Source: Pseudooceanicola marinus (lineage in GTDB: Bacteria; Pseudomonadota; Alphaproteobacteria; Rhodobacterales; Rhodobacteraceae). Taken from it: DNA of 64,000 nucleotides. A model generated the notes under the pieces. That model was not told where the DNA came from and made no database searches. It worked only from the letters and a program-made list of their open reading frames with translations. Position 1 is the stretch's first letter, and each line of letters opens with the position of its first letter. Below, in pieces: positions 29,491 to 54,164 of this stretch. The translations under genes were made by a program, and so were the position numbers. The stretch lies in the NCBI RefSeq assembly GCF_002786295.1, contig NZ_PGTC01000009.1:372001-436000 (forward strand), read 5' to 3'.

Positions 29491-29556
29491 CCGCCGGGGC
29501 GGATCGCCCCGCCAGTTCGGCTTGCGGTGGTCCCCGCGCCGGTGCATCTTCGCCCC

Positions 29557-29940: not shown

Positions 29941-29962
29941 CGCTTGGCGCTTTGGGCGATTT

Positions 29963-29986
29963 CGTTATGTTTGCCGAAATATAACG
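29963..29986 (+). promoter_or_regulatory. Mo-box (ModE operator) before modA
   Basis: CGTTATGTT and AATATAACG are inverted half-sites separated by 6 bp, one mismatch between arms. This matches the recalled ModE pattern CGnTATATA-N6-TATATAnCG in architecture and most positions. It ends 11 bases before the modA start codon, so it occupies the place of a ribosome site and any promoter must lie within or upstream of it. Confidence 0.75.
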
Positions 29987-29997
29987 TGGATGTCCCC

Positions 29998-30762: not shown

Positions 30763-30763
30763 G

Positions 30764-36152: not shown

Positions 36153-36165
36153 CGCCCGCGCACCG

Positions 36166-37893: not shown

Positions 37894-38911
37894 CGGAAAC
37901 CTCTCGGATCGGGGGGGCGGCCAGTCGGGGATCGCCCAGCACCTCCTGCAACCAGCTGCGCGCCGGGGCGAAGGCGTCGAACGCCGGGGGCAGGTCGTCC
38001 GGCAGGTCCCGCACCGCCGGGTCGGACAGGGCCATCACGGCGGCGAACCCGTCGCGGAAGACGGCCCGATGGTGATGCGACAGCATGCTTTCGCACCAGG
38101 CGGCCAGTTTCGCCGCCGACAAGAGCAGGGCCGCGCGGCAGTGCGGATCGCGCGCCTCCGGCAGCGGTGCGAAGCGGGCCAGCAGCAGGCGGATCACCGC
38201 GAGGATGTCGAAGCGCAGCGCATCGCGTGCTCCGGTGATCTGCCGCGCGCCGGGGCGGCGATGATAGGTGAAGGTGGGCTGCGAACAGAGGGCCAGGCGT
38301 TCGGCGGCCGCGACCGAGAGCGCATGGAAGTAGAGGTCCTCGAAGAAATGCCCGTTGGGAAAGCCGAGGCCCGCCCTCTGCAGCAGGTCCCGGCGCAGGC
38401 ACTTGTTCGCCGATTGCGGCTCCGCCAGCAGGGCCAGTGCCTGGGTGCGGCGGTAATGCGGCGTGCCTTCGCCGCCCGGCGCGCTGGCCAACTGCCGGCC
38501 AAGCGCCTCCAGCGTGGCCTGGTCGTAAAACCGTGACAGCTGCCCTGTCTCCTCCGACAGGATACCCGGTGCCAGGATCAGATCCGGAGCGCTGGTGTCG
38601 ATGGCCCGCGCCAGGCTCTGCAGCGCCCAGGGCGGGCGTGTGTCGTCGGCGTCGAGGAAGCAGACGTAGTCGCCTCGCGCGGCCGCCAGCCCGCGGTTGC
38701 GCGCCGAGGACAGCCCGTCATTTGCCTGCCGCAGGAGACGCAGGCGCGGGTCGTTCTGCCGTTCCGCCTCTGCCCGCGTCGCGGCATCGGCGCCGTCCAT
38801 CACCAGGATCAGCTCGAAATCGCGAAAGTCCTGCCGCCACATCGACTGCAGGCTCTGCCGCAAAAGCGGGCCTTCGTTGTAGCAGGTGGTGATACAGGAA
38901 AAGGTGACCAC
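37841..38911 (-). CDS. GT2-family glycosyltransferase
   Basis: A 356-residue GT-A enzyme: FSCITTCYNEGPLLRQSLQSMWRQDF, LILVMDGADAATRAEAE, NDGLSSARNRGLAAARGDYVCFLDADD with the DADD metal site near residue 98. The rest resembles group 2 transferases of capsule or LPS clusters. No membrane spans. It is read away from the PKS operon and shares the 348-bp gap at 38912-39259 with it. Donor and acceptor unknown. Confidence 0.88.
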   Translation of the reverse strand: MVTFSCITTCYNEGPLLRQSLQSMWRQDFRDFELILVMDGADAATRAEAERQNDPRLRLLRQANDGLSSARNRGLAAARGDYVCFLDADDTRPPWALQSLARAIDTSAPDLILAPGILSEETGQLSRFYDQATLEALGRQLASAPGGEGTPHYRRTQALALLAEPQSANKCLRRDLLQRAGLGFPNGHFFEDLYFHALSVAAAERLALCSQPTFTYHRRPGARQITGARDALRFDILAVIRLLLARFAPLPEARDPHCRAALLLSAAKLAAWCESMLSHHHRAVFRDGFAAVMALSDPAVRDLPDDLPPAFDAFAPARSWLQEVLGDPRLAAPPIREVSDAPDPIRFPRLWPKRRA

Positions 38912-39259
38912 CTTCGTCCCTCCCGGCTGTCCTCAGCCTCGCCTGTCCCGGCATCGGACCGGCGGCGGACGGGGTGAGTGTTGGGGCGGGAAGGTTAAAT
39001 TTCCGTTGTGCCCAAACCGGCCCGAACGGGCTCTGAGGGGGACGCTGGCGGCGAGATGCGGCATAGACATGCGGCCGTCCGTCTCGGCCACATAATTTTA
39101 ACCGGTTTTTAAGCCGCGGCGGATTTTCTCCAAATTGCAACGAGGGGTTGCGGGCCTGGCAGCTTTGCCTGGATTTGCCTGGATCAGCCCCTCCTCATGA
39201 CCGTTTCGCCCGTGATGCGCGTCCCACAAGGGGGCGCGGCCGGGGGGACAGGGGGACAG
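38912..39259. promoter_or_regulatory. Divergent promoter region of the PKS operon and GT2 genes
   Basis: No gene is supported here. The stretch 39090-39145 is AT-rich compared with its surroundings and contains TTTTAACCGGTTTTTAA around the self-complementary AACCGGTT (39100-39107). This is a reasonable place for the promoter and an operator of the 15-kb rightward operon. Part of the upstream frame (39197-39259) could instead extend the PKS N-terminus. Confidence 0.35.
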
Positions 39260-42200
39260 ATGATCAGATTCGCCGGCCGTGCCTGCAGACTGCCCATGGC
39301 ACCCGATGTCACCGCCTTCGAGGCGCTTCTTTACGACGGGCGTTCAGCGGTGACCCAGATCCCGGAGGACCGCTGGCGCCATGCGCCCTTCTTCCACCCG
39401 GTGCCGGGGACGCCGGGGCGCTGCTACAGCTTCGCCGCCGGTGTGGTGGACGGGATCCATGCCTTCGATCCCGCGCCCTTCGGCATCTCCCCCCGGGAAG
39501 CGGCCTACATGGACCCGCAGCAGCGCCTGTTCCTGCAGGTGGTCTGGGACGCGCTGGAGGACGCCTGCCTGAAGCCGTCCGAGCTTGCGGGCAAGGAGAT
39601 CGGCGTCTTCGCCGGCGCCTCGCTGATGGATTACGGCGCGGGCCTGGGCTACGACCCGCAGGCCGCCGACAGCTACGCGATGAGCGGGTCCTCCCTGGCG
39701 GTGATCGCCAACCGGGTCAGCCATGTCTTCGACTGGCACGGGCCGTCGATGACCATCGATACGGCCTGCTCCTCGTCCCTCTTCGCCCTGAACGCCGCCC
39801 GCAAGGCGCTGGAAAGCGGCGAGGTGGAGATCGCGGTGGTCGGCGCCACCAATGCCCTGTTGCTGCCCAGCCAGTTCGTCGGTTTCGCGGCGGCTCGGAT
39901 GCTCTCGCCCAGCGGTCTGTGCCAGGCCTTCGGCGCGGGCGCAGACGGCTATGTGCGGGGCGAGGGCGCGGTGGCCTTCGTTCTGGTCCGCGACAGCGCC
40001 GAGGCGCCCCTGTCGCCGCGCGACCGGGGCCGGTTGCTGCACGTTGAGACGAATACCAGCGGGCAGACGGTGAACATCGCGCTGCCCTCGGCGCGGGCGC
40101 AGACGGCGCTTCTGCGCAGCGCCTACGATCGGGCCGGGATCGATCCCGACCAGCTGGACTTCGTGGAGGCCCACGGCACGGGCACCGCCGCCGGCGATCC
40201 GGTGGAGGCCGAGGCCCTGGGGCTTGCCCTGGGCCAGCGGCGCGGGGCGCCTTTGCCCATCGGGTCGGTGAAGACCAACATCGGCCACCTCGAACCCGCC
40301 GCCGGCAGCGCAGGGCTGCTCAAGGCGCTGATTGCGCTGGAGCGGGCAGAGCTTCCGCCCAGTCTCAATGCCGCCGAGCTGAACCCGGCGATCCCCTTCG
40401 ACCGGCTGAACCTCGACCTGGTGCAGCAGCGGCGTCCGCTCGACGGGGCGGCGATGGCGGGGGTCAGTTCCTTCGGCTTCGGCGGGGCCAATGCCCACGC
40501 CATCCTGGGGGCGCCTGATCCGCGTCCGGTGCCCGCAGTGGAGGAGCAGGGGCCGGAGCCGCGCCCGATCCACCTCGCCTCCGCCTTCTGCCGCGAGGCG
40601 CTGCGCGAGATGCTGGAGGAACAGGGCGCGCGTCTTTTCGATCCCGCAGGGCAGCAGAACACGCGGCTGGTGGACGAGGCGCTGCATCATCGCGACCTTC
40701 ACCCGCACCGGGTGGCGATCATCGCGCGAACGCCTCGGACGGCTCAGGCGGCGCGCGCCGCTTTCGAGGTGGGCCAACGCCACCCGGCGCTGGAAATGGC
40801 CGGGTCGCGGCTGGTCGATGCGCCGCCCGTCTTCGTCTTCTCGGGCAACGGCGCGCAGTACCCTGGGATGAGCCGCGCCGCCTATGCCGGTAGCCCGGAC
40901 TACCGCGATGCCTACGACCGGATCGACCGGGCCTGGCAGGCGCAGGCCGGCTGGTCCCTGGTGGACCGGCTCGGCGCGGAGGACCTCGGCGTGCAGCTGT
41001 CCAAGGCCCCGGTCTCGCAACCGCTTCTCTTCGCCGATCAGGCGGCGACCGCGTTGGCGCTCATGGCGCGGGGGGCGCAGCCCGCGGCGGTCATGGGCCA
41101 CAGCGCGGGCGAAGTCGCGGCGGCCTTCATCGCCGACGCGCTCGACCTCGCCTCGGCGGTGCGCCTGGTGCAGGCCCGGTCTTTGACGCAGGAGTCGCTG
41201 GCGGGGCAGGGCACCATGGCCGCGCTGCAACTGGGGATCGAGGAGGCGCGGGACATCCTGGCCACCCATGGGGATCCACGGATCGAGATCGCGGCCGACA
41301 ACAGCCCCCGCTCCGTCTCGCTGGTCGGGCCAAGGGATGCGCTGGAGGCGTTTACCCGGCACGCCCGGCGCGGCCTGAGGCTGGCCTGCGTGCCCCTGCG
41401 CGTCGACTACCCGTTCCATTCCAGCGCCCAGGAGGCTCTGCGCGCCTCGCTCTTCGACCACCTTGGCGTCCTCGACCCTGGCCCGGAGGCCGTGCCGATC
41501 TATTCCAGCGTCACCGGCAGACGGCTGGTCGGGGGTGATCTCGACAGTTTCCACTGGTGGCGCAACATGCGTCAGCCGGTGCTGTTCCGCCGGGCGGTGC
41601 AGGCGCTGGCCGAGGACGGGCATCGCCTGTTCCTGGAGATCGGGCCGGATCCGGTGCTGGCGGCCTACCTGCGTGACAGCCTCGGGACGGAGGCCGGAGA
41701 GATCGCCGTGCTGCCCAGCCTGGCGCGCAAGGACGAGGCCTCGCCGGATCCGCTGGATCGGGTGCTGGCCCGGCTGCTGGTCAACGGGGCGCGGCTGGAC
41801 CGCACGGCCCTGGCACCACCGCCCGCGGGGCCCTCGCGGGAGCTGCGCTCCTATCCCTGGCAGCTGAAGCATCTCGCCGCCTCCGACACCCCCGCCCTGA
41901 GCCGCGACAGCGGGCGCAGTGGCTTCCACCCGCTCCTCGGGCGACAGGCGGATGCCAGCGCGACGCTCTGGACCAACGAAATGGACCCGGATCTGCAGCC
42001 GGCCTTCGCCGCGCATCGGGTGGCCGACCGCTGCCTGTTGCCGGGCACGGCGCTGGCGGAAATGGCGCTGGCCGCCGCGCAGCGCAGCCTGGGGGCCGAG
42101 GCGGTCACGCTGGATGACTTCGACATGACGGCGGCCCTGCCGCTGACGCCGCGCAGCCTGACCGAGGTCCGCACCGAGGTCGTCCCGGCCGAGCGGCGCC

Positions 42201-45200
42201 TGCGCATCGCCTCGCGGCCCCGCTGGTCCGAGGAGGCCTGGCGCGGCCATGCCACGGGCCGCTTCGCCCGCTCTGTGGATCCGCAGTCGGTGCCGCCGGT
42301 CCCTGCGCCCGATCCGGCCCTGCGCCCGGGCGATGGCCCGGCCCACAGGCTTTATGCCCAGGCGGCGGAAATCGGGCTGACCTACGGGCCGGCCTTCCGC
42401 AACCTGTCGCACTACCGCATGCCCGGCGAGGACGAGATCGAGGTGATCCTGCAGGCCCGCCGGCCCGATGGCTACGACCCGGCCGACTACGCGCTGGATC
42501 CGGTGGGCGCGGATGCCGTGCTGCACGGGCTGATCGGAGCGCTGCACCAGGGGCGCTTCGCGGATGAGGTCCTGGCCTTCGTGCCGACCCGCATCACCCG
42601 GCTGGACCTTCTGCACCCGGGCTGTGCCCTCGCGGCGGGGCGCATTCACCTGCGCCGGCGCGGGGATCGCAGCCTGCGCGCCGATCTGACGCTCTTCGAC
42701 GCGGCCGGTCGGCTGGTGGCCCGCATGGACGGGGTCGAGTTGCGCGCGCTGCGGGCGACGCAGCTGGTGGACCTGTCGCGCCATGCCTTCGGACTGGAGA
42801 CGGTCCCGATCGACCCGCCGGGCCTGCCGCAGAAGGCGCCCGCGCCCTGGCCGGCACCGGAGGAGGTCGTCGCGCAGCTCGGTGCGCTCTCCGGGGAGGC
42901 GCCCGAGGCGCCGGAAGAGGCGGCGCTGCTGCTGGATGCGCTGGCGCAACGGATCGCCTTCGACACGCTGGCGGCTGTCGGCCCCGCATCCGGCGGCGAC
43001 GCGCAAGGCGTTGCGGCGAAGACTTTGCGACAGGGCCTTTCGGACCTTCTGGCGCCGCTGGATCTACCGACGCAGGCCCTTGGCCAGGAGGCGGAGCTAG
43101 AGTGTGACCTGCCCGACGCGGCGGCCCTGATCACCGGGATCTCGGCAGAATACCCCGCGCTGATCGCCGAATGTACGGCGCTGGCCCATCTGGCGGAGGC
43201 GCTGCCGCGCTGGCTGGCCACTGGCCTGCCCGAAAGCGAGGAGGCCGGCTTTGGTCGCGCCGTGCTCGACGGTCTGGAGGTCGGCTCGGTCATGACCGAG
43301 GCCCGCGCGCGCCTCGTCGCAGAAAATCTGGGCAGGCTGCTGGCGGCGCGGTCGGGGCGGGCGCGGCGGCCGCTTTGCGTGGTTGAGCTTTGTGATGGCC
43401 CGCCGCGTCTGCTGCCGCATTTGCAGGGCGGGGCCGACGGCGCCGCCTGGACAGCCTGGGCATTGGAGGAGGACCGGGCCGCCCTGCTGCCGCCCGCCTT
43501 GGGCGATGGGATCGGCAGGGTGGGCCCGGCGCATCTGGCCGAGATCGGCTCGGTGGACCTGGTACTGGGCTGTGGCTCCGCGATGACGCCGGTCACCTGG
43601 TCGACCCGGCTGGCGGCCCTGAGCCCGGCCCTGCGTCCCGGAGGGGCGGTGATCCTGGCCGAGGCCAGGCCGCGCCCGCACCTGGCGTTGCTCCGTCTGC
43701 TTGGCGAGGCGTTGGCCGAAGAGGACGCGGATCGGCCGCGACCGCCGAAATTGCAGGAGGCGCCGGGCCTCGAAGAGGCGGCCCGAGCGGCTGGCTTTGA
43801 AGAGACGTGGGCGCAGCCCTGCGCGGGGGCCTGTGGGCTGACGCTGCTGATCGCCCGGACACCGGACGGGGTCACCAGAGACGGTGGTGCGCCGAGGGAC
43901 ACGGACGCTCAGCGAGGAGAGGGCACGGGACTGGAGGAAATGCTTCGCGCCGCGCTGGTCGGAGAGGCCCTGCCGTCGGAGGAGACGGCGGAGCCCTTGC
44001 CGGTCCTGACCGGGGCGGAGGGTGCAGGCCCCCTCGTGCTCTTTGCGCCGAAGCCGGAGCCGGAGGGACAGGAACGCCCTGGCGCGCCCCGTCTCGCGGC
44101 GCGTCTGCTGGCGCTGTCGACCCGTTTGCGCCGCGAAGAGGCCCGGGGCGCCCGGGACATCTGGCTCATCTGCCCGGGCGGCGCGGGGGCCGGAGGCCTC
44201 GCGCCGCCGGATCCGGACCAGGCGGCGCTCTGGGCGGTGATGCGCACGGCAAAGAACGAATACCCCGGCTTCGACATCCACGCGGTGGATCCAACGGGGT
44301 TGCCGCCGGGTGAGGCCGCGGCCCGCATCGCCGCGCTGATCGCAGCGGGCACCCCGGAAACGGAGCTTTGCTTGATGCCGGATGGCCCCCGTGCCCTGCG
44401 GGTGCGGGCAGGGGCGGCGCCCACGGCTGCCACGTCTCCCGCGGTGCGGCTCACGGCGGATCCCGCCGGTGGCCTAGACCGCCTGGCCTGGCGCGCGGCG
44501 CCCCTGCCGGAGCCCGGGCCCGGCGAGGTTCGGGTGGATGTGGCGGCGACGGGCCTGAATTATCGCGACGTGATGTGGTCCATGGCGCTGCTGCCCGAGG
44601 AGGCCTTGGAGGGCGGCTTTGCCGGGCCGACCCTCGGCCTGGAATGCGCCGGGCGCGTCGCGGCCTTGGGCGCGGGGGTGACCGGTCTCGCCGTGGGGGA
44701 TGCCGTCGTCAGCTTCGGCCCGGCTTGCCTTTCCAGCCACATGGTGACCGACGCTGCCTGGCTGACGCGCCTGCCCGATGGGCTCTCTCCGGAAGAGGCG
44801 GCGACGCTGCCCGTGGCCTTCTTCACCGCCTTCTACGCGCTGGAGCACCTGGGACGCATGCGACCGGGGGAAACGGTGCTGATCCACGGCGGGGCGGGGG
44901 GCGTCGGCCTGGCCGCGATCCAGATCGCGCAGTGGCGGGGCGCCCGGACCATCGCCACCGCCGGCACGGAGGCGAAGCGCGCCTACCTGCGCGCCCTCGG
45001 GGTCGAGCATGTCCTGTCGTCCCGCGACCTGACCTTTGCGGCGGAGGTGCGGGCCCTGGGCGGTGTCGATCTGGTGCTGAACGCCCTGGCCGGCGAGGCG
45101 ATGGAACGCAGCCTCGGGCTGCTGCGCCCCTTCGGTCGCTTCCTGGAGTTGGGCAAAGTCGATTTCTACGCCAATACCGGCATCGGCCTGCGCCCGCTGA

Positions 45201-46693
45201 AGGACAATGTGACCTACCACGGGGTCGATATCGACCGCCTGCTGCGGCACGATCCGGCCCTGGCGCGAGAGCTCTTTGCCCAGGTGATGACCCTGTTCGG
45301 GGACGGGGCGCTGGCCCCCCTGCCGGTGCGTGCCTTCGATGGCACGCAGGTTCAGGAGGCCTTCCGTCTGATGCAACGGTCGGGTCATGTGGGCAAGCTG
45401 GTGATCCGTCCGCCCGCGACGCCGCGTGCCGCGCCGCCCGACGCGCCGGTGCTGTTCCGGCCAGAGCCCGAGGGCGTCGTGGTGATCGCCGGCGGCGGCA
45501 GCGGCCTGGGTCTGGCCCTGGCCGCACGGCTGGTGCGCAATGGCGCGCGAAAGATCGCCGTGTTGGGGCGGCGAGCCGAACCTGCGCCGGCCTTGCTGCT
45601 GGAAATGGCCCGGGCCGCGGAACAGGGGGCGGAGATCCGGCCGGTCTGCTGCGACATCGCCGATGCCGCTGCGCTGGAGGACAGCCTGCAGACGCTGCGG
45701 AACTGGGGCCCCCTGGATCTGGTGGTCAATTCCGCCATGGTGCTGCAGGACATGCGGCTGGCCGACCTTTCGGCGCCGGTCCTGAAGAAGGTGCTGGCGG
45801 CGAAGGTGACGGGCACCCGCAACCTCGATCACGCGACCCGGGGCGATGCGCTGCGCGGCTTTGTCGTCTTCACCTCGATGGCGACGCTGATCGGCAACCA
45901 CGGGCAAGGCGCCTATGTCGCCGGCAACGCCTGGGCCGAGGCCCTGGTGCGCCAGCGCCGTGCCGCCGGTCTGCCCGGTCTGGCCGTCGGCTGGGGGGCG
46001 ATCGACGACTGCGGTTACCTGACCCGCGATGCGGAGACGGCCCAGGTCGTGCGCCGCTTCGGCGGTGGCGTGCGCTTCGGCGTGGCCCAGGCCCTGCGCG
46101 CCCTGGATGAATTGCTGGCCTTTGACCAGCAGGAGGATGCGGACCCGGTGATCTGGGTCTCGCCGATGGCCTGGGCCGCGCCCGCGGCCAGTCTGCGCCT
46201 GCTGCGCGGGCCGATGCACCAGGTCCTTCGGGCCCTGGGCCAGCAGTCCGGGGAGGGACCCGAGGGCGACGATCTGCGCGCCACCCTGGCCACCCTGTCA
46301 TCTGAGGCGGCGGAGAAGCGGCTGACCGGCTTCCTCCTTAGGGAGGTGGCACGGATCCTTCGCGTCCCGGAAAGCGGCCTGTCGGCGACCCGTCCGGTGG
46401 CCGATTTCGGCGTCGATTCCCTGATGGGCATCGAGTTGGGCCTGGCCGCCCAGCAGGCGCTCGGTGATGACATCCCGCTCATGGCGATCTCGGATGCGCA
46501 AAGCATGGCAGAGATCGCGCGTCGCATCGTGGCCCATATTCAGGGGACGGGCCCCGGTGCCGGGGACAGTGGTCTGGGCGATTTGGCGGCACAACACCTG
46601 GGCGCGGCCTCGGCGGGCAGGACGTCGGCGCCGGACGGGCTGCCCGCGCGCCGCGCCGCAGGCGGTGGCGGTGCGATGGAGGCCGCGGAATGA
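39260..46693 (+). CDS. Single-module reducing type I polyketide synthase (KS-AT-DH-pseudoMT-ER-KR-ACP)
   Basis: About 2477 residues; I use the ATG at 39260 behind GGGGGACAG (39197 is the alternative). KS to about residue 400: Cys170 in DTACSSS, His305 in EAHGTGT, His343 in NIGHLEP. AT about 530-830: Ser615 in GHSAGE, YPFHS at 718-722. DH about 890-1180: His919 in HRVADRCLLPG (Gly of HxxxGxxxxP is Asp) and DAVLH from Asp1085. About 1230-1560 resembles a C-methyltransferase but motif I is eroded (VVELCDGPP near 1374). ER about 1725-2045 with HGGAGGVG at 1876. KR about 2070-2290 with GGGSGLG and Tyr2219. ACP Ser2387 in GVDSLMG. No thioesterase. The domain set predicts an iterative enzyme making a saturated acyl chain, released by the AOS encoded next. 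Confidence 0.92.
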   Translation: MIRFAGRACRLPMAPDVTAFEALLYDGRSAVTQIPEDRWRHAPFFHPVPGTPGRCYSFAAGVVDGIHAFDPAPFGISPREAAYMDPQQRLFLQVVWDALEDACLKPSELAGKEIGVFAGASLMDYGAGLGYDPQAADSYAMSGSSLAVIANRVSHVFDWHGPSMTIDTACSSSLFALNAARKALESGEVEIAVVGATNALLLPSQFVGFAAARMLSPSGLCQAFGAGADGYVRGEGAVAFVLVRDSAEAPLSPRDRGRLLHVETNTSGQTVNIALPSARAQTALLRSAYDRAGIDPDQLDFVEAHGTGTAAGDPVEAEALGLALGQRRGAPLPIGSVKTNIGHLEPAAGSAGLLKALIALERAELPPSLNAAELNPAIPFDRLNLDLVQQRRPLDGAAMAGVSSFGFGGANAHAILGAPDPRPVPAVEEQGPEPRPIHLASAFCREALREMLEEQGARLFDPAGQQNTRLVDEALHHRDLHPHRVAIIARTPRTAQAARAAFEVGQRHPALEMAGSRLVDAPPVFVFSGNGAQYPGMSRAAYAGSPDYRDAYDRIDRAWQAQAGWSLVDRLGAEDLGVQLSKAPVSQPLLFADQAATALALMARGAQPAAVMGHSAGEVAAAFIADALDLASAVRLVQARSLTQESLAGQGTMAALQLGIEEARDILATHGDPRIEIAADNSPRSVSLVGPRDALEAFTRHARRGLRLACVPLRVDYPFHSSAQEALRASLFDHLGVLDPGPEAVPIYSSVTGRRLVGGDLDSFHWWRNMRQPVLFRRAVQALAEDGHRLFLEIGPDPVLAAYLRDSLGTEAGEIAVLPSLARKDEASPDPLDRVLARLLVNGARLDRTALAPPPAGPSRELRSYPWQLKHLAASDTPALSRDSGRSGFHPLLGRQADASATLWTNEMDPDLQPAFAAHRVADRCLLPGTALAEMALAAAQRSLGAEAVTLDDFDMTAALPLTPRSLTEVRTEVVPAERRLRIASRPRWSEEAWRGHATGRFARSVDPQSVPPVPAPDPALRPGDGPAHRLYAQAAEIGLTYGPAFRNLSHYRMPGEDEIEVILQARRPDGYDPADYALDPVGADAVLHGLIGALHQGRFADEVLAFVPTRITRLDLLHPGCALAAGRIHLRRRGDRSLRADLTLFDAAGRLVARMDGVELRALRATQLVDLSRHAFGLETVPIDPPGLPQKAPAPWPAPEEVVAQLGALSGEAPEAPEEAALLLDALAQRIAFDTLAAVGPASGGDAQGVAAKTLRQGLSDLLAPLDLPTQALGQEAELECDLPDAAALITGISAEYPALIAECTALAHLAEALPRWLATGLPESEEAGFGRAVLDGLEVGSVMTEARARLVAENLGRLLAARSGRARRPLCVVELCDGPPRLLPHLQGGADGAAWTAWALEEDRAALLPPALGDGIGRVGPAHLAEIGSVDLVLGCGSAMTPVTWSTRLAALSPALRPGGAVILAEARPRPHLALLRLLGEALAEEDADRPRPPKLQEAPGLEEAARAAGFEETWAQPCAGACGLTLLIARTPDGVTRDGGAPRDTDAQRGEGTGLEEMLRAALVGEALPSEETAEPLPVLTGAEGAGPLVLFAPKPEPEGQERPGAPRLAARLLALSTRLRREEARGARDIWLICPGGAGAGGLAPPDPDQAALWAVMRTAKNEYPGFDIHAVDPTGLPPGEAAARIAALIAAGTPETELCLMPDGPRALRVRAGAAPTAATSPAVRLTADPAGGLDRLAWRAAPLPEPGPGEVRVDVAATGLNYRDVMWSMALLPEEALEGGFAGPTLGLECAGRVAALGAGVTGLAVGDAVVSFGPACLSSHMVTDAAWLTRLPDGLSPEEAATLPVAFFTAFYALEHLGRMRPGETVLIHGGAGGVGLAAIQIAQWRGARTIATAGTEAKRAYLRALGVEHVLSSRDLTFAAEVRALGGVDLVLNALAGEAMERSLGLLRPFGRFLELGKVDFYANTGIGLRPLKDNVTYHGVDIDRLLRHDPALARELFAQVMTLFGDGALAPLPVRAFDGTQVQEAFRLMQRSGHVGKLVIRPPATPRAAPPDAPVLFRPEPEGVVVIAGGGSGLGLALAARLVRNGARKIAVLGRRAEPAPALLLEMARAAEQGAEIRPVCCDIADAAALEDSLQTLRNWGPLDLVVNSAMVLQDMRLADLSAPVLKKVLAAKVTGTRNLDHATRGDALRGFVVFTSMATLIGNHGQGAYVAGNAWAEALVRQRRAAGLPGLAVGWGAIDDCGYLTRDAETAQVVRRFGGGVRFGVAQALRALDELLAFDQQEDADPVIWVSPMAWAAPAASLRLLRGPMHQVLRALGQQSGEGPEGDDLRATLATLSSEAAEKRLTGFLLREVARILRVPESGLSATRPVADFGVDSLMGIELGLAAQQALGDDIPLMAISDAQSMAEIARRIVAHIQGTGPGAGDSGLGDLAAQHLGAASAGRTSAPDGLPARRAAGGGGAMEAAE

Positions 46694-48129
46694 GCGGGGC
46701 AGGACAGCGCCGTGGCCTGGCGCCGGAGATCCGCGATGCCGCCCTGGGCGCCGCCCGTCGGGCCTCGGTCGCCGCGCCTGCCGCAAGAGGTCTGGCCGGC
46801 GGGCCCTCGCGACCTGTCGCGCCAGCGCCAGACATGGCACCCGAGGCTCGGACCGATGTGGCTGGGGGCCGCCCCAGGGGTCTGCACCGGCTAGAGGGAT
46901 GGCAGCAGATGCAGGCGCTGGACCAGGCGACCGAGGCGCTTGGCGTGGCCTCGCCCTACTTCCGCCTGCATGAGGGGCGGGCGGCGGATACCACCCGGAT
47001 CGCCGGGCGGGACTGTCTGAACTTCGCCTCCTACGACTACCTCGGCCTCAACGCCGATCCGGGGCCACGGGCCGCGGCGCGGCAGGCGCTGGACACCTAC
47101 GGGGTCTCGGCCTCGGGCAGCCGGATGGTTTCTGGCACGCGGCCCGTCCATGACGCGCTGGAGGCGGCGCTGGCGCGGCACTACGGCTGCGAGGCGGCGC
47201 TGAGCTTTGTCAGTGGTCATGCCACCAACGTCAGCCTGATCGCCACCCTGATGGGGGAGGGCGACCTGGTGCTGTCGGATGCCTATATCCACAATTCCGT
47301 CAGCACCGGCATGGCCCTGTCGGGGGCGGCGCGCCGCAGCTTTCCGCACAACGACCTGGCCGCGCTGGAGCGGATCCTGGAAAACGCCCGACCGCTGCAC
47401 CGCCACGTGCTGATCGTGGTCGAGGGCCTGTATTCCATGGATGGCGACCTGCCCGATCTGCCCGGCCTGCTGGCGCTGCGCGACCGTTTCGACGCCTGGC
47501 TGATGGTGGATGAGGCCCATGCCCTGGGGCCGGTCGGCCCGACCGGGCAGGGCGTGTTCGAGCATTTCGGCCTGGAGCCCGCGCTGGTCGACATCTGGAT
47601 GGGCACGCTCAGCAAGACCTTGGCGTCCACCGGCGGCTACGTGGCGGGCAGTGCCGACCTGATCCGCCTGCTGCGGCATCGTGCGCCGGGGCATGTCTTC
47701 TCGGTGGCCCTGCCGCCGGTGCTGGCGGCGGGGGCCGAGGCGGCGCTGGTGCAGATGGGGGAAGAGCGCTGGCGGATCGAGAAGCTGCACGCCAACGGGG
47801 CACATTTCCTGGCCAAGGCGCGCGGGCTCGGGCTGGACCCCGGGGCGGGGCAGGGGTTCGGCGTCTTGCCGGTGATGATCGGTGACAGCCTGCAGGCCGC
47901 GCGCCTGTCGGAACGGTTGCTTGCCCGGGGCATCAACGTGGCGCCGGTGACCTTCCCTGGCGTGCCCATGGGCGCGGCCCGGCTGCGTTTCTTCCTGTCA
48001 TCGGATCACGACACCGCGCAGATCGACCAGGCGCTGACGGTCTGTGCGGAGGAACTGGCGCGACTGCGCGACGACGGTCTGGGCCGTCTGATGAGCGGCA
48101 GCCGCCGCGACGAAAGGGCAGGATCATGA
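46690..48129 (+). CDS. Alpha-oxoamine synthase (PLP, serine palmitoyltransferase/KAPA synthase fold)
   Basis: A 479-residue protein; the first 75 residues are a low-complexity extension before the usual AOS start (QMQALDQATEALGVASPYF). Core motifs: LNFASYDYLGLNADP, YGVSASGSRMVSGT, LIVVEGLYSMDGD, WLMVDEAHALGPVGPTGQG and the PLP Lys309 in GTLSKTLASTGGY. Enzymes of this fold condense an amino acid with an acyl thioester, losing CO2, to an alpha-amino ketone. The gene overlaps the PKS stop (ATGA). With no thioesterase on the PKS, AOS off-loading from the ACP is the natural reading, as in fumonisin-type and other PKS-AOS pathways. Amino acid and chain length unknown. Confidence 0.9.
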   Translation: MSGAGQRRGLAPEIRDAALGAARRASVAAPAARGLAGGPSRPVAPAPDMAPEARTDVAGGRPRGLHRLEGWQQMQALDQATEALGVASPYFRLHEGRAADTTRIAGRDCLNFASYDYLGLNADPGPRAAARQALDTYGVSASGSRMVSGTRPVHDALEAALARHYGCEAALSFVSGHATNVSLIATLMGEGDLVLSDAYIHNSVSTGMALSGAARRSFPHNDLAALERILENARPLHRHVLIVVEGLYSMDGDLPDLPGLLALRDRFDAWLMVDEAHALGPVGPTGQGVFEHFGLEPALVDIWMGTLSKTLASTGGYVAGSADLIRLLRHRAPGHVFSVALPPVLAAGAEAALVQMGEERWRIEKLHANGAHFLAKARGLGLDPGAGQGFGVLPVMIGDSLQAARLSERLLARGINVAPVTFPGVPMGAARLRFFLSSDHDTAQIDQALTVCAEELARLRDDGLGRLMSGSRRDERAGS

Positions 48130-49307
48130 TAGACGCAGGCAGCACGGTCCCTGCACCGAAACGCATTCTGGTGGTCGGCGCGGGTCTCTCGGGCGCCGTC
48201 GTCGCGCGCGAACTGGCTGATGCGGGCCACTATGTGACGGTGCAGGATGAACGCCGTCACATCGCCGGCAATTGCCATACGGAGATCGATCCGCGGACCG
48301 GCATCCTGGTCCATGCCTACGGCCCCCATATCTTCCACACCGACGACGCCGCCGTCTGGGCCTATGTCACCCGGTTCGCCGACATGGTGCCATTCCGCCA
48401 CCGGGTGAAGGCCGTGGCCGCCGGGCGGGTCTATTCGCTGCCGATCAACCTGCACACGATCAATCAGCTCTACGGTCGGGCCATGACGCCCTGCGAGGCC
48501 CGCCATTTCATTCGCAGCCAGGCCATCGCCGGGGACGACGCCCCGGTCAGCTTCGAGGAGCAGGCCCTGCGCTTCGTCGGGCCGCGTGTCTACGAGACCT
48601 TCCTGCGCGGCTACACGCGCAAGCAATGGGGGGTGGAACCATCGGATCTGCCGGCCTCGATCCTGAAACGCCTGCCTTTGCGGTTCGACTACGATGATCG
48701 CTACTTCGATCACCGTCACCAGGCCATGCCGCGCCACGGCTACACGGCGATGGTGGCGCGAATCCTCGATGCCCCCCGGATAGAGTTGCGCCTGAACGCC
48801 CCCTTCGACGGGCGCCCCGGTCCGGAGATCGATCACCTGGTCTACACCGGCCCTCTGGATCGCTACTTCGGTCAGGACCTGGGGCCTCTGGGCTATCGGA
48901 CGCTGGAGTTTGAGCGTTTCGAGGTCGAGGGCGATGCCCAGGGGACGGCGGTGGTGAACTTCTGCGATGAAGAGGTGCCCTATACCCGCGTGACCGAACA
49001 CCGGCATTTCTCCCCCTGGGTGGAGGCCCCGCCGGAGCGCAGTGTCTGCTTCCGCGAATACAGCCATTCGGCGCGCCCGGGCGACATTCCCTATTACCCG
49101 CTGCGTCTGCTGAGCGACCGCAAACTGCTGTCGCGCTATCGTGCCCGTGCGGAGGCGGAGGAGGGCGTGACCTTCGTCGGGCGGCTTGGCACCTACGCCT
49201 ATCTCGACATGGACAAGGCCATCGCCCGGGCGCTGGAAACCGCCGGGGCCCTCAATGCCGCCTGGGCGCGGGAGGCGGAGGCACCGGCCTTCGTGCATGC
49301 CCCGTGA
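48126..49307 (+). CDS. glf: UDP-galactopyranose mutase
   Basis: A 393-residue flavoenzyme. Seen: the FAD motif ILVVGAGLSGAVVARELADAGHYVTVQDERRHIAGNCHTE in pieces, HAYGPHIFHTDDAAVWAYV (diagnostic of Glf), YTRKQWGVEPSDLPASILKRLPLRFDYDDRYF in pieces, and the C-terminal LGTYAYLDMDKAI. It converts UDP-galactopyranose to UDP-galactofuranose, the donor for the transferase encoded next. It overlaps the AOS gene by 4 bp and the next gene by 4 bp (GTGA). Confidence 0.95.
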   Translation: MIDAGSTVPAPKRILVVGAGLSGAVVARELADAGHYVTVQDERRHIAGNCHTEIDPRTGILVHAYGPHIFHTDDAAVWAYVTRFADMVPFRHRVKAVAAGRVYSLPINLHTINQLYGRAMTPCEARHFIRSQAIAGDDAPVSFEEQALRFVGPRVYETFLRGYTRKQWGVEPSDLPASILKRLPLRFDYDDRYFDHRHQAMPRHGYTAMVARILDAPRIELRLNAPFDGRPGPEIDHLVYTGPLDRYFGQDLGPLGYRTLEFERFEVEGDAQGTAVVNFCDEEVPYTRVTEHRHFSPWVEAPPERSVCFREYSHSARPGDIPYYPLRLLSDRKLLSRYRARAEAEEGVTFVGRLGTYAYLDMDKAIARALETAGALNAAWAREAEAPAFVHAP

Positions 49308-51142
49308 ACGCACCCGGCATTTTTCCCAACGAGCCGATCCACCGGCTGCAGGAGGTCCTGTTCCCGGCGCGCGGGCGGCCGCCGGACATCTACCTGCAGG
49401 CGGATCCGGGCGCGGTGGAGGTCAGCGGTGGCACCCTGGCCTGCCTGGCGGGGACGCGGCTCGACTTCGGCACCTGGTTCAACAGCTTCTACCTCGGCTT
49501 CTGGTCCGCCCATGCGCAGATCCGCGGTCTGATCCTGCGGCTGAGCTTTCACGGCGCCCTGCGCATCACCGTCGAACTGCGCCGCGACGGTGTGCCGCCC
49601 CGTGTCCTCGCCCGGCAGGAGGTCGAGGGCGCGGGCGAACCCTTCGTGCTGCCCCTTCCGGATCCGGGGGAGGCAGGGCGGCTGGCCCTCGTGCTCGACT
49701 GTCTCGGCCCCTGCCGTCTGGTGGAGGCGGCCTTTTGCACCGATGTCCCGCCGGCCCCCGTGCGCCTGACCATCGGCATCTGCACCTTCAACCGCGAAGA
49801 GCAGCTGCGGGCGACGCTGGACAACCTGGCCCGGATCCGCGCGAGCCTGCCGGAGCTGGTGGACATCATCCTGGTCAACTAGGGCGATCCCCTGGCTGCG
49901 CCTGAGACGCGCGCCGCGCTGGATCGGGCGGGCGCCCGGCTGCTTCATCAGCCGAACCTGGGGGGCGCCGGCGGCTTCACCCGGGGTCTGGACGCGGCCT
50001 GCACCGGCCCGGGGGACACGACCCATCACTTGCTGATGGACGACGATATCGCCCTGGATCCGCGCATGGTCCGTCGCCTGGTGGAAGCGCTGTCCTATGC
50101 GCGGCCCGATCGCGCCCTGGGTGGTGCCATGTTGGAGACGGAGCGCCCGCGCGTGCTGCACGAAGCGGGGGCGCGGTTGCAGCGGGGCTGGGGAGTGGCC
50201 TCCTTCGGCACGGGTCGGGCGCTCGGGCAGCAGGAAACGCTCGCGCTCTTCGACCGGGTGGCGAAGGCGGATTACAACGGCTGGTGGTTCTGTGCCGTGC
50301 CCATGACGGCGGTGCGTCGCGCCGGATTGCCGCTGCCGCTGTTCATCCGTGGCGACGACATCGAGTATGGCTGCCGTCTGGGCGCCGTGGGCGTCGCCAG
50401 CGTGACCCTGCCGGGCTGCGCCGTCTGGCACGACGCCTTCGCGGGCAAGGCGCGCCCCTGGCTGACCTACTACGACTACCGCAACCTTCTGGTGAATGCC
50501 GCCCTCCACCCGCAGGTCGCGCCGCCGCCCGCACCGCTGGAGGTGCTGGGCGCGCTCTTCGCGCGGCTGCTGTGCCATCAGTACGGCATGGCCGCGGCGG
50601 TGCGGCAGGCGGTGTCGGACTACCTCGCCGGGCCCGGGCAGATCGACCGGATCACCCTGACGGAGCGGCACAGCCAGTTGTCCGCCCGGTTCAGCCGGGA
50701 GGATGGCCAGCCGCTGGCCCCCGGGACGCCGGCGCCCCCACCGGGGTCAGCGCGGGACAGGCCGCAGGCGATCGGGCGCGTCGTGGCCCTGTTCCTGCGT
50801 CGGTTTATCCAGATCTCTGCCGGTGCCGGGCGTGGCGATCCCGCCAACGCCAGCTACAGCCTGCACCAGATCACCCCGGCGGCGGTCGGCCCGGGCCCCT
50901 ATGTGCGCCGCGCCGATCCGGAGGGGCGCCGGTGCCTGATCCTGTCGCCACATCGCGCGCGGCTCTGGTGGGGCGCGCTGGCCGCGCTGGCGCTGTGGCT
51001 GCACTACCTCTTGCGCCACCGTGCCGCGGCGCGCCGCTGGCGGGACGGGGCCGGTGCGCTGGCGGACCGGGAGGCCTGGGCGCGCCGGTTTGCCGGGGCC
51101 GGTGCAGGGCCGCAGAGCGAGGGTCGTTCCGATGGCGCCTGA
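49304..51142 (+). pseudogene. GlfT2-like galactofuranosyltransferase split by one in-frame TAG
   Basis: The frame from the GTG at 49304 to 51142 spans 613 codons, near the size of mycobacterial GlfT2, and is broken only by TAG at 49880-49882 (codon 193). Before it: an N-terminal beta-rich domain and the GT2 start LTIGICTFNREEQLRATLDNL ... IILVN. After it, in the same frame: GDPLAAPETR, NLGGAGGFTRGLDAA, the metal site MDDDIALD (Asp246-248), KADYNGWWFC, IRGDDIEYG and the WHD catalytic-type motif (His376) with KARPWLTYYDYRN. GT2 relatives usually have Q-G here, so TAG looks like a CAG-to-TAG change. Whether it is a true mutation, a sequencing error or read through is open. The product would add galactofuranose. 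Confidence 0.8.
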
Positions 51143-52427
51143 CGCATCCGCCGCGCCCAGGGTGCTCTTCCTGCAGGGGCCACCCTCGGATTTCGCGCGC
51201 GCCCTCGGGGCCGAGTTGGGCGAGCGCGGTGCGCGCGTGCACCGGATCAACCTATGCGCCGGGGATTGGATCTACTGGCATGGGCCCGGCGCGCGCAGCT
51301 ATCGCGGCAGCCTGGCGGGCTGGCCCGACTGGCTGGACGGGGTCCTGGCGACCGAGGGGATCACCGATCTACTCTATTTTGGCGATTGCCAGCCCTATCA
51401 CCGCGCGGCCCGTCGCGTGGCGGAACGGCGCGGGGTCCGCACGCTGGCCTACGAATATGGCTACCTGCGGCCCGACTGGATCTTGGCGGAGCCGGGCGGG
51501 CAGAGCACCTATTCCTGCCTCACCGCAGATCCTGCCCGTCTGCGGGACGCGGCGCGGGATCTGCCGGCAGTGGACCTGACCCCGCGTCACCGGATTGACC
51601 GCAGGCGCGAGGCTCGGGGCGACGTGATCTATCACCTGGCCAATTACCTGCTGGCCCCGCTTTACCCGCGCTTTCGTCGTGACCGGCTGTTCAATCCGAT
51701 CCTGGAGTATCTGTCCTATCTGCCGCGACATCGCCGCGCCCGGCGGGGGGAGGGGCAGGCGCGGCGGCTGGCCGACCGGCTTGTGGCCGAGGGCGCGCCG
51801 GTCTTCCTGGCGATCCTGCAGATGCAGAACGACTACCAGATCCGTGCCAATTCGCCTTACCGCGATCAGCGCCACTACCTGGAGGAGCTGGCCGCCTCTT
51901 TCGCGAAGCACGCGCCGCCGCAGGCCCAGCTGGTGGTGAAACTGCATCCCCATGACAACGGCTTGACGCCCTGGCGCCGCTGTCTGGCCCGGTTGCGTCG
52001 TCGGTTCGGCCTGGCGGGGCGGCTGCACCTGCTGGATGGCGGCCGGGTGGAGGACTGGGCCTGCCACGCGCAGGGCGTGGTCACGATCAACAGCACCGCC
52101 GGGCTGACCGCGCTGGCCTGTCGCGCTCCGGTGCTGGTGCGCGGGGTGGCGATCTACGACATGCCAGGGCTGACGCATCAGATGGGGCTGGACAGGTTCT
52201 GGCACGCGCCGCAGCCGCCCGACCCGGACTGTCTGGAGGACATGTTGCGGGTCCTGGCCCATCATCTTCACGTCCGCGGGGCCTTCTACGGCGGATCGGG
52301 ACAACAGGCCGCCATCACCGCCATGGCGGATCGGATCATGGCCCCGACCCCGGCACCTCCGATCTTCGAGCCGGTCCCGCCACGGCTGGCCCGCGCCCGC
52401 GCCATGGGGGTGCCGGTCGATGCCTGA
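51132..52427 (+). CDS. Capsule polysaccharide synthesis protein, KpsS/KpsC-like
   Basis: A 431-residue protein from the ATG at 51132, overlapping the preceding gene by 11 bp. It has the Capsule_synth pattern: VLFLQGPPSDFARALGAELGERGARVHRINLCAGDW in pieces, LLYFGDCQPYHRAARRVAERRGVRTLAYEYGYLRPDWI, VVKLHPHDNGLTPW, and VTINSTAGLTALACRAPVLVRGVAIYDMPGLTHQ in pieces. KpsS and KpsC transfer Kdo residues onto phosphatidylglycerol to build the capsule lipid anchor. Here it may instead add a sugar to the amino-polyketide lipid, or link it to a polysaccharide. No membrane span seen. Confidence 0.88.
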   Translation: MAPDASAAPRVLFLQGPPSDFARALGAELGERGARVHRINLCAGDWIYWHGPGARSYRGSLAGWPDWLDGVLATEGITDLLYFGDCQPYHRAARRVAERRGVRTLAYEYGYLRPDWILAEPGGQSTYSCLTADPARLRDAARDLPAVDLTPRHRIDRRREARGDVIYHLANYLLAPLYPRFRRDRLFNPILEYLSYLPRHRRARRGEGQARRLADRLVAEGAPVFLAILQMQNDYQIRANSPYRDQRHYLEELAASFAKHAPPQAQLVVKLHPHDNGLTPWRRCLARLRRRFGLAGRLHLLDGGRVEDWACHAQGVVTINSTAGLTALACRAPVLVRGVAIYDMPGLTHQMGLDRFWHAPQPPDPDCLEDMLRVLAHHLHVRGAFYGGSGQQAAITAMADRIMAPTPAPPIFEPVPPRLARARAMGVPVDA

Positions 52428-53247
52428 TCTGCCCTATCGCCGCATTGCCATCGCCGGGGGCAGCCGGGGGATCGGTGCGGCCCTGGCGCTGGCGCTGGCC
52501 GGCCCGGGGCGGGAGCTTTGGCTTTGCGCGCGCGACGGCCCGCCGCTGGAAGAGACGGCGCGGGCCTGTCGGGACAAGGGAGCGCAGGTGCGGTGCCACA
52601 GCTGCGACCTCAGCCAGCCCGGGGCGGCGGCGGCCTGGCTTGACGAGATGGGCGAGGGGCGCGCACCTGACCTGCTGATCGTCGCCGTCGGCATATTCGG
52701 CGGGCGGCCAGACGGCGCGGTCGTGACGCCGGAGGCGGTGATGCGCCAGGTCATCGCGGTCAACCTGACCGGGGCCCTGGCCCTGGCCGAGGCGGGAGCG
52801 CTGAGGATGCGCTGCGCCGGGCGGGGGCAGATCGTCCTGCTGGGCTCACTGGCCGCCCGGGACCCCTTGCCGGACGCCCCGGCCTACAGCGCCAGCAAGG
52901 CCGGCCTGGCCTGCTACGCACGGGCCCTGCGCGCAGACCTCGCCGGCAGCGGTGTCGGGGTGCTGCTGGTCGAACCGGGCCATGTCGAGACGCGTCAGAC
53001 CGCCCAGCACCAGGGGGCGCTGCCGCTGCTGATGTCTCCCCCTGCGGCGGCAGAGCGCATCCTGCGGGCGCTCGACCGTGGCCGCAGTTCCATGGCGTTT
53101 CCCCGCCGGGCCGTGCTGGCGCTGTGGCTTCTCGATCTCCTGCCGGCGGCCTGGCGCGCGGCGGTGCTGGCGCGGCATCGGTTCAGCGTGCACAACCTTG
53201 CACCCCCGGCACCGCCGGTCGCCCGGGGACCGGGCGGGGAGGACTGA
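52420..53247 (+). CDS. Short-chain dehydrogenase/reductase (candidate 3-keto reductase)
   Basis: A 275-residue classical SDR: cofactor motif AIAGGSRGIGAALALALA with Arg in LWLCARDG (NADPH preference), CDLSQ, NLTGALALAEA, catalytic Ser in IVLLGSLAARD and YSASK. The VEPGHVETRQTA segment and the hydrophobic C-terminal part (VLALWLLDLLPAAWRAAVL) recall 3-ketodihydrosphingosine reductases, which are membrane-associated. In this operon it would reduce the keto group left by the AOS to an amino alcohol. It overlaps the KpsS-like gene by 8 bp. Confidence 0.88.
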   Translation: MPDLPYRRIAIAGGSRGIGAALALALAGPGRELWLCARDGPPLEETARACRDKGAQVRCHSCDLSQPGAAAAWLDEMGEGRAPDLLIVAVGIFGGRPDGAVVTPEAVMRQVIAVNLTGALALAEAGALRMRCAGRGQIVLLGSLAARDPLPDAPAYSASKAGLACYARALRADLAGSGVGVLLVEPGHVETRQTAQHQGALPLLMSPPAAAERILRALDRGRSSMAFPRRAVLALWLLDLLPAAWRAAVLARHRFSVHNLAPPAPPVARGPGGED

Positions 53248-54164
53248 TGGCCCGGCTGATCCTGCATATCGGCACCCACAAGACCGGCACGACCGCGATC
53301 CAGCACTGGCTGGCCGGCCACCGGGCCGCGCTTGGCACACTGGGCTGGCACTACGGCGCGACCGACCGGCCACCGCATCCGCGCCTGCCGAAACACAGCA
53401 GCCTCTACCGGGCGCTGCTGGAGGGGCGCTACAGTGCCGAAGAGGCCGCGATCCTGGCCGATCACGCGGCCTCTGGGCTGCCCGATCTGATCCTCAGCGA
53501 GGAGGGCTTGTCGCTGCCAGCGTTCCGCCGCTTCGCCCCGCTTCGGGGACTGGCGGAGCATTTCGATGTGACGGTGGTGGCCTTGTTCCGCCGTCAGGAC
53601 ATCTTCCTCGAGTCCCACTGGCGGCAGTTGTGCAAGGAAGGGCAGACCGGCGCCTCGCTCGACAGCTTCCTGCAGAGGGAGTGGACCCGCCAGCGCATGC
53701 GCTATGACCGTATCCTCGATTTCTGGGCGGAGTTCGCCAGCATCCGCGCGGCCCGCTACGACCCCGGACATGCCGGGGGCGCCGTCGGTCAGGTTCTGGC
53801 GCTGGCCGGGCTGCCGCTGGATCCCGGGCCGGTCCGGCGGGCGAATCCCTCGCTGTCCCCCGGGGTGGCGGATGTCTGCGCCCGGCTGACGCGCAACGGC
53901 CTCGCCTCGCTGGTGCCGATGGTTGCGCGCGTGGCCCGGGGGCGCGGTGGCCAGGGATCGGGGATCAGCATGGCGCGCCGCACAGCGCTGTTGGCCGAGG
54001 CCGCGCCCGGCAATGCCCGCCTGGCGGAACGCTACGACATCCACTTCGACCCACCGGACGCGCCTGCGGCGGACAGCCCTGTCCCCGCGTCCGCCCAGGC
54101 CCCCCGGGACGATCCGTCGCAGTCGGCAGGCGGCCACACGCAAACGTTAGGAAACATCAGGTGA
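53247..54164 (+). CDS. Sulfotransferase-like protein, last gene of the PKS operon
   Basis: A 305-residue protein; its ATG overlaps the reductase stop (TGATG). The N-terminal LILHIGTHKTGTTAIQHWL is the PAPS-binding loop form (HxGxxKTGTT) of many bacterial sulfotransferase-like proteins. VTVVALFRRQDIFLESHWRQ fills the 3'-phosphate-binding position. The C-terminal 45 residues are polar and disordered. It probably sulfates the product of this operon. Divergence from well-studied enzymes leaves other transferase roles possible. Confidence 0.78.
   Translation: MARLILHIGTHKTGTTAIQHWLAGHRAALGTLGWHYGATDRPPHPRLPKHSSLYRALLEGRYSAEEAAILADHAASGLPDLILSEEGLSLPAFRRFAPLRGLAEHFDVTVVALFRRQDIFLESHWRQLCKEGQTGASLDSFLQREWTRQRMRYDRILDFWAEFASIRAARYDPGHAGGAVGQVLALAGLPLDPGPVRRANPSLSPGVADVCARLTRNGLASLVPMVARVARGRGGQGSGISMARRTALLAEAAPGNARLAERYDIHFDPPDAPAADSPVPASAQAPRDDPSQSAGGHTQTLGNIR

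Follow-up and report, generated by a model that had tools for sequence, protein, structure and literature searches.

The window is a 64,000-nucleotide stretch of the Pseudooceanicola marinus genome, within which seven genes at positions 39260..54164 (+), all read rightward, encode a type I polyketide synthase (PKS), an alpha-oxoamine synthase (AOS), the UDP-galactopyranose mutase Glf, a GlfT2-like galactofuranosyltransferase, a KpsS-like protein, a short-chain dehydrogenase/reductase (SDR), and a sulfotransferase-like protein. Start and stop codons place successive genes in overlaps of 4, 4, 4, 11, 8, and 1 bases. We propose, as the reading we modestly favor, that these genes form a capsule locus in which GlfT2 polymerizes galactofuranose for Kps-type export and an rkp-type amino-lipid serves as anchor or carrier, perhaps with sulfation. 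An initial annotation had predicted an outer-membrane or capsule-anchor amino-lipid as the product; the comparisons below support a capsule-linked amino-lipid as plausible and the prediction as right in kind.

We infer each chemical step, the attachment of the polymer to the lipid, and sulfation as follows. An iterative reducing PKS would make an acyl chain, AOS would join the chain to an amino acid in a decarboxylating condensation that yields a 2-amino-3-ketone, and SDR would reduce the ketone to an amino alcohol. The KpsS-like enzyme would add the first sugar to the amino alcohol or a related lipid, Glf would make UDP-galactofuranose, and GlfT2 would polymerize galactofuranose. Branching may come from two glycosyltransferase family 2 (GT2) proteins encoded upstream, and sulfation may be the work of one or both sulfotransferase-like proteins. 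The product would leave the cell by a Kps ATP-binding cassette (ABC) system, which in the host would need the KpsM-E-T set on another contig.

The lipid-making core and the rkp-1/wcb module

Searching with the window AOS by tblastn, we reached a locus of Sinorhizobium meliloti that encodes OPX, PKS, AOS, SDR, a Sulfatase-superfamily protein, and a Capsule_synth protein. The rkp names used here for its genes were assigned from order and family, and the order agrees with that printed for rkp-1 in the available part of PMC7902896, namely, rkpABCDEFGHIJ with rkpU upstream and with rkpA to rkpF fused in complete genomes. The window PKS was 36% and 42% identical in two blocks to the RkpA-type protein, with the same Pfam domain order, the AOS was 51% identical to the RkpG-type protein, and the KpsS-like protein was 41.5% identical to the RkpJ-type protein (E 1e-101). 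In a tree of 79 AOS rows, which held no named SPT or BioF reference rows, the 26 rkp-type rows, labelled as such before the tree was made and including the window, fell on one side of a branch with support of 96/97. The KS motifs of the window PKS read DTACSSS, DPQQR, and HGTGT. The type I PKS wcbR/rkpA belongs to wcb/rkp capsule clusters (excerpt of PMC3908369), and a review credits the rkp-1 products with a part in the synthesis and modification of a specific lipid carrier that serves capsule secretion, for which the available portion of the source states no structure (PMC4881576). We conclude that the PKS-AOS-SDR-KpsS core corresponds, by homology and gene family, to the already known rkp-1/wcb capsule-lipid module.

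The initial annotation knew of no described system of this kind, a claim that did not survive for the locus as a whole, as its PKS, AOS, SDR, and KpsS-like genes form an S. meliloti rkp-1-type locus. It had also named a close match to a characterized cluster as evidence that would count against it, and such a match was found for the core alone and not for the Glf, GlfT2, and sulfotransferase-like additions. What appears new relative to rkp-1/wcb is the addition of these three proteins, and no description of a combined rkp-GlfT2 locus was recognized in the open-licence literature searched.

The NCBIfam KpsS model gave the KpsS-like protein 173 bits, far below the cut-off of 600, the protein was 31% identical to the other KpsS of the host genome, and a PDB sequence search with it returned 0 matches at 0.01. 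For the AOS, the best PDB match was SPT (3a2b, E 4.5e-65), and the NCBIfam SPT equivalogs gave 278.9, 251.5, and 204.2 bits against cut-offs of 640, 500, and 670. An ordinary SPT, BioF, KBL, or ALAS was rejected, as all 19 listed NCBIfam models remained below their cut-offs. We note that an AOS domain 49% identical ends a gene of about 1,600 amino acids on a Streptomyces plasmid (L014 6317-11140; here and below, L numbers are stretches and G numbers genomes), with no capsule genes annotated nearby, and that in neither of the plasmid relatives, L014 and L015, is a PKS-KpsS module annotated next to the AOS.

GlfT2, export genes, and conservation of the locus

In the sister, P. marinus SY-2-17 (L063), the operon genes are 89 to 97% identical and their order is kept; L131 (G790) and L063 were counted as one genome. 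Synonymous divergence between window and sister was 0.14 to 0.24, and the ratio of nonsynonymous to synonymous divergence (dN/dS) was 0.05 to 0.26 for all ten pieces compared. A Capsule_synth search was made of 36 relatives, 22 of the same genus (own included) and 14 from other families. The operon-type KpsS (E <1e-60) was found in 6/22 same-genus genomes and had no match in the 14 relatives from other families, and in all five other same-genus carriers it sits in a PKS-AOS locus. Three of these stretches (L130, L132, and L134) hold PKS-AOS-Glf-GlfT2-KpsS-SDR-sulfotransferase in that order at 50 to 75% identity, and L133 holds a partial PKS, AOS, Glf, GlfT2, KpsS, and a partial SDR, its contig ends falling inside the PKS and inside the SDR. 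Because these three stretches and the sister keep all seven genes in order, we conclude that the arrangement is not due to chance; lack of conservation as a unit had been named beforehand as a finding against the initial annotation, and the unit was conserved. A convergent methyltransferase gene separates GlfT2 from KpsS in L046, L047, L048, L130, L133, and L134; in L064 such a gene comes after GlfT2, and none was found near GlfT2 in the window, L063, or L132.

Within the rkp-type group, eight AOS rows (window, L063, L064, L046, L047, L048, L049, and L065) form a Rhodobacteraceae clade with support of 100/94. GlfT2 follows AOS or Glf in 7/8 clade rows and in 0/18 other rkp-type rows of the stretches compared, and Glf is adjacent in 5/8 clade rows; L052, not a member of the clade, carries a Glf in opposite orientation. 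Absence of GlfT2 carries little weight for L053 (4 kb) and L059 (10.6 kb), which are ended by contig ends. A GlfT2 on another contig was high scoring in G162 (L053) and G318 (L050) and low scoring in G276 (L052). The eighth clade row, L065, is without GlfT2, and a glycosyltransferase family 4 (GT4) enzyme and a CDP-alcohol phosphatidyltransferase occupy the slot (11430-13405). The replacement suggests that the slot may hold polymer-specific enzymes, and it suggests that in L065 the same lipid module carries another polymer, which perhaps bears phosphate.

Across 394 genomes of the family, rkp-type AOS (E <1e-100, a cut chosen after the list was seen) occurred in 16, high-scoring GlfT2 in 12, and both in 7, in 5 of which the two were adjacent and in 2 of which (G318 and G162) they were on different contigs. 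High-scoring GlfT2 was present in 5/378 family genomes lacking rkp-type AOS. When all GlfT2 matches were counted (43 genomes), GlfT2 was found in 8/16 genomes with rkp-type AOS and 35/378 without. The AOS tree later placed all 15 non-own rkp-type family hits in the rkp-type group. In a sample of 385 genomes of the class, 13 had an rkp-type AOS (E to 1e-95) and 2 had GlfT2 (E to 1e-20), with the host genome counted both times, and the second GlfT2 genome was without such an AOS. Relatives are not independent, and the Fisher values calculated from such counts are thus descriptive.

The available text of PMC12269835 describes GT2-family GlfT2 relatives in diverse bacteria as associated with galactofuranose homopolymers and characterized GlfT2-family enzymes as galactan synthases, of which the Kingella enzymes required their DxD and DD motifs. 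The DxD, DD, W-W, and W-H motifs were present in 10/10 GlfT2 sequences checked, including the downstream fragment of the window copy, which is interrupted as described below. Moreover, in G353 and G229, about 50 kb around the locus showed no polymerizing glycosyltransferase besides GlfT2, which lies near KpsM/T/E there, the flanks being judged from open reading frame translations by eye with 5 and 7 proteins Pfam-checked besides KpsM. Further glycosyltransferases lie nearby in G104 (by Pfam) and apparently in G012 (by eye). Because GlfT2 stands as sole polymerizing glycosyltransferase in two genomes and belongs to a galactan-synthase family with its motifs kept, we conclude that it probably makes the capsule backbone.

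Genes for Kps-type export adjoin the locus in relatives. KpsM and KpsT are divergent beside the PKS in L046, L047, L048, L049, and L064, that is, in 5/7 GlfT2-bearing clade loci, and Pfam confirmed KpsM in L064, L048, and L049 and KpsT in L064. In the same genus, KpsM-KpsT-KpsE adjoin the PKS in L132 (genome G786), with KpsM and KpsT divergent just upstream of it. The L132 KpsM, used as a query in 4 genomes, had a close match in its own genome alone and 35 to 40% relatives in the others. In G353, the locus stands together with KpsM, KpsT, a KpsE-like gene, and OPX. In the host genome (4.5 Mb, 30 contigs), OPX-KpsC-KpsS share the contig of the window but lie apart from it, and KpsM-E-T are on another contig; no RkpU/OPX gene lies beside the PKS in the window, and OPX was found near 659 kb of the window's contig. 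Host KpsM, KpsT, and OPX were assigned by Pfam and KpsE by a 27% tblastn match alone. We note that the host KpsM-E-T genes (L120 5246-12436, C16) lie beside apparent dTDP-rhamnose genes, judged by eye, as a second polysaccharide locus.

The sulfotransferase-like protein was recognized by motif. G10, K13, T14, T16, T17, and R116 are invariant in 8 aligned homologs, and we take them to be a 5' phosphosulfate-binding loop and a downstream conserved arginine. Searches were run from 53244, one codon before the listed start, and neither a Pfam family (threshold 0.1) nor an NCBIfam model (threshold 0.01) matched the protein. A profile search returned 3rnl (Sulfotransferase) at E 0.008, ranked below four ribosomal-protein sequences, PF17784 was matched weakly in 1/8 members (E 0.019), a PDB search with the single protein gave one ribosomal match at 0.66, and a fold model from two sequences was unusable, with a predicted local distance difference test (pLDDT) score of 39. 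Homologs were found in 4/4 same-genus stretches reaching far enough and in 0/15 stretches L046-L060. Ten other GlfT2 stretches (L107-L116), all without the lipid module, were picked rather than sampled (seven high scoring and three lower, 10 of the 45 matches listed, with L107 just 3.6 kb long); 6/10 held a sulfotransferase homolog, 4 held KpsM-like genes, and 4 held Glf. The sulfotransferase-like protein of G360 (L109 7265-9253) extends into a further C-terminal region of about 350 amino acids.

The interrupted glfT2 and competing readings

An in-frame TAG at 49880-49882 cuts the window glfT2 (49304-51142) into a part of 192 amino acids and a downstream part, in which all four of the motifs checked fall. 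A sense codon occupies the TAG position in 6/6 aligned relatives and the frame is uninterrupted in 5/5 other same-genus copies, and a conserved recoded stop was thereby ruled out. GlfT2 profile models scored under or just under their cut-offs on both window fragments (Pfam Glft2_N, 25.8 bits on the first fragment versus a cut-off of 26.1), and in a sequence search the intact sister GlfT2 matched the solved GlfT2 structure 4fix at E 3.5e-51. On the two sides of the TAG, dN/dS between window and sister was 0.22 and 0.15, within the range of neighboring genes. Because both sides keep constraint like that of neighboring genes, we conclude that the TAG is either a recent change or an assembly error. 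Galactofuranan synthesis may be lost in the window strain unless the TAG is an assembly error or is read through, and genes 3' of the TAG that start in overlaps may be affected.

Several observations weigh against a GlfT2-built capsule carried or anchored by an rkp-type lipid, the interruption of the window glfT2 among them. Within the window there was no KpsM/T/E or OPX match at 1e-6. In L046 and L049 the AOS has no Glf next to it, and Glf was found elsewhere in the genomes concerned (G104 and G229), 35 of the 43 GlfT2-bearing family genomes are without rkp-type AOS, and no sulfotransferase homolog was found in the L046-L049 stretches, with a short weak match in the outer flank of G012. The two extra GT2 proteins mean that the polymer need not be a homopolymer, and branches or a mixed polymer are possible. 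The SDR, only 29% identical to the RkpH-type protein and placed after KpsS, is an uncertain counterpart of RkpH. RkpI is missing from the window and was not found in the host genome by a search made without a positive control; it was present in just 3/24 other rkp-type loci searched (L011, L012, and L013) and is thus not a constant part of the module. The motif HxxxGxxxxP, which we take to be the DH consensus, was matched in the PKS of S. meliloti, L011, L013, and L046 but unmatched in those from the window, L063, and L048, and because the window motif deviates from this consensus, complete reduction of the chain is unsure. The usual linker of 3-deoxy-d-manno-oct-2-ulosonic acid (Kdo) could serve instead, because a canonical KpsS and a KpsC-like gene are present in 22/22 same-genus genomes examined (on two contigs in G776). 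Finally, a reference-list title reports a phospholipid anchor for the S. meliloti 1021 capsular polysaccharide (KPS), a finding that weighs against the rkp lipid as the covalent anchor.

The last two points suit a reading in which the rkp-type lipid is an export helper and the galactofuranan sits on the usual Kdo-phosphatidylglycerol anchor made by a separate KpsC/KpsS pair. Such a KpsS and KpsC-like pair is present not only in these 22 same-genus genomes, the host among them, but also in G353, G104, G012, and G229, and reference-list titles report a phospholipid anchor of S. meliloti KPS and a requirement of rkp-1 for secretion. We consider this reading unlikely, as the locus has its own distinct KpsS-like gene, which is confined to 6/22 same-genus genomes and, in the five other carriers, sits in the same PKS-AOS locus. 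Canonical capsules are built on phosphatidylglycerol to which KpsS and KpsC add Kdo, and KpsS is a capsule-linker family (available part of PMC11041684). The latter speaks against a small, polymer-free outer-membrane glycolipid, in which an amino alcohol would bear sulfate and one or a few galactofuranose residues. Such a lipid would fit the presence of all the enzyme types named, the sulfotransferase by motif, and the lack of exporter genes in the window, but KpsM/T(/E) genes stand beside the same genes in relatives. The suggestion of the initial annotation that galactofuranose merely decorates a small lipid found no support, given the galactan synthases of the GlfT2 family and the standing of GlfT2 as sole polymerizing glycosyltransferase in G353 and G229. 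We regard a small glycolipid alone as quite improbable and less likely than the capsule reading.

More improbable by far is that the locus makes a diffusible natural product, an amino-polyketide that has nothing to do with the cell surface. A 44% identical AOS domain does lie under a gene annotated as a type I polyketide synthase on a Planktothrix plasmid, but the KpsS-like, Glf, GlfT2, and KpsM/T/E neighbors and the place of the window AOS in the rkp-type group point away from such a product. Compatible with any of these readings is decay of the locus in the window strain, with the TAG real and perhaps silencing translationally coupled downstream genes. We take decay to be a serious possibility, somewhat short of probable: a TAG where 5/5 other same-genus copies are open speaks for it, but the dN/dS values on both sides of the TAG fit a recent change or an assembly error, and no other gene among the seven is interrupted.

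A more specific form of the capsule proposal would define a class of capsules whose (sulfated) galactofuranan is assembled by a GlfT2-type polymerase directly on a PKS/AOS amino-alcohol lipid primed by the KpsS-like enzyme, in place of the Kdo-phosphatidylglycerol anchor. We offer this form tentatively and think it doubtful. In these loci the rkp lipid module comes with a single candidate polymerase, from a family whose chemistry is known, and the identity of the rkp lipid and its attachment to the capsule thereby become testable in a marine bacterium that is not known to be a pathogen. If the polymer is attached to the rkp-type lipid, ABC-exported capsules would gain a further kind of anchor.

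Window features and comparison with known systems

Features of the capsule-type locus and its upstream genes in the window
Feature	Position	Strand	Basis
Mono-modular type I PKS (RkpA/WcbR-like; KS, AT, DH, ER, KR, ACP)	39260..46693	+	Pfam; homology to S. meliloti; present in relatives
Alpha-oxoamine synthase (AOS), RkpG-type	46690..48129	+	Pfam Aminotran_1_2; S. meliloti identity; tree group
UDP-galactopyranose mutase (Glf)	48126..49307	+	Pfam GLF 1.3e-69
GlfT2-like galactofuranosyltransferase, split by in-frame TAG	49304..51142	+	Pfam Glft2_N; sister copy vs 4fix
KpsS/RkpJ-like Capsule_synth protein	51132..52427	+	Pfam Capsule_synth 1.7e-65
Short-chain dehydrogenase/reductase (SDR)	52420..53247	+	Pfam adh_short 5.2e-32
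Sulfotransferase-like protein	53247..54164	+	motif only
GT2 glycosyltransferase, upstream, divergent	37841..38911	-	Pfam Glycos_transf_2 7.3e-26
Weak methyltransferase-like part + GT2, upstream, divergent	36166..37893	-	Pfam Glycos_transf_2 7.9e-24
Second sulfotransferase-like gene, facing the two upstream GT2 genes	35262..36152	+	by eye

The gene family assignments of the initial annotation were borne out by Pfam and homology, that of the sulfotransferase by motif only. The PKS has an alternative upstream ATG at 39197, and the NCBIfam UDP-GALP_mutase model gave Glf 295.7 bits, slightly below its cut-off of 303.75. Upstream, the GT2 gene at 37841-38911 is divergent from the PKS in L063, L130, L132, and L134 and has a 46% homolog near GlfT2/Glf in G040. 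The protein of 36166-37893, in which Pfam MTS (0.0013) is below its cut-off, is conserved with the locus in relatives, and the gene at 35262, without a Pfam family at 0.1, has 65 to 96% identical copies in the same place in L131, L135, L136, and L137. Because these three genes recur in relatives, we conclude that they probably belong to the locus, which is better drawn as 35262-54164. The initial annotation had drawn a single transcript of seven genes; the gene set and its overlaps were seen and are conserved as a unit, but the interruption of one of the seven, glfT2, had been missed, as had the upstream genes.

Other genes of the window were classed by eye. A MarR-like regulator gene (54281-54829) directly follows the operon, is 98% identical in the sister, and is 90% identical in two further species beside the same locus; it is a possible regulator or simply a neighbor of the insertion site. 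Three genes at 23169-25717 (-) resemble a CsgG-type curli secretion set, 12502-17055 resembles a set for the uptake of iron-siderophore or hemin that includes two permeases and an ATPase, and 29527-31459 resembles ModE-ModA-ModB molybdate uptake genes.

Among the closest known systems is rkp-1 of S. meliloti (rkpA, rkpG, rkpH, rkpI, and rkpJ, with rkpU upstream), in which, as in the window, the AOS gene follows the PKS gene and overlaps it by 4 bases and an SDR gene and a KpsS-like gene are present; rkp-1 also shares the PKS domain order, and its AOS falls in one tree group with that of the window. Unlike the window, rkp-1 encodes OPX and an RkpI-type protein with a Sulfatase-superfamily domain, its SDR is the distant one noted above (29%), and Glf, GlfT2, and sulfotransferase queries matched nothing in its 25-kb stretch. 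The wcb/rkp capsule clusters, likened here by the description in an excerpt of PMC3908369, carry the type I PKS wcbR/rkpA within a capsule synthesis and export cluster, whereas the window has Glf/GlfT2 and is without export genes. The same excerpt describes swf PKS clusters of sponge symbionts, which like the window have a mono-modular KS-AT-DH-ER-KR-ACP PKS with a sulfotransferase nearby. Unlike swf, the window has an AOS and a PKS in which DPQQR and HGTGT are the RkpA state and not that of SwfA, and membership in swf was ruled out on these KS motifs only.

Group 2-type ABC-dependent capsules (KpsMTED, KpsC, and KpsS) share the KpsS-like gene with the locus, and KpsM-E-T and OPX-KpsC-KpsS are present elsewhere in the host. 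In the window, by contrast, the KpsS-like gene is an extra copy, the locus holds no KpsC, and a lipid-making PKS/AOS is added. Finally, the window GlfT2 resembles the GlfT2 galactan synthases, such as that of Mycobacterium tuberculosis, in retaining the DxD and DD motifs and in the alignment of its sister copy to 4fix, and it is likened by description only to PamC of Kingella kingae, a GlfT2-family galactan synthase. Unlike those enzymes, it is interrupted here and lies beside a PKS/AOS module, with KpsM/T/E alongside in relatives.

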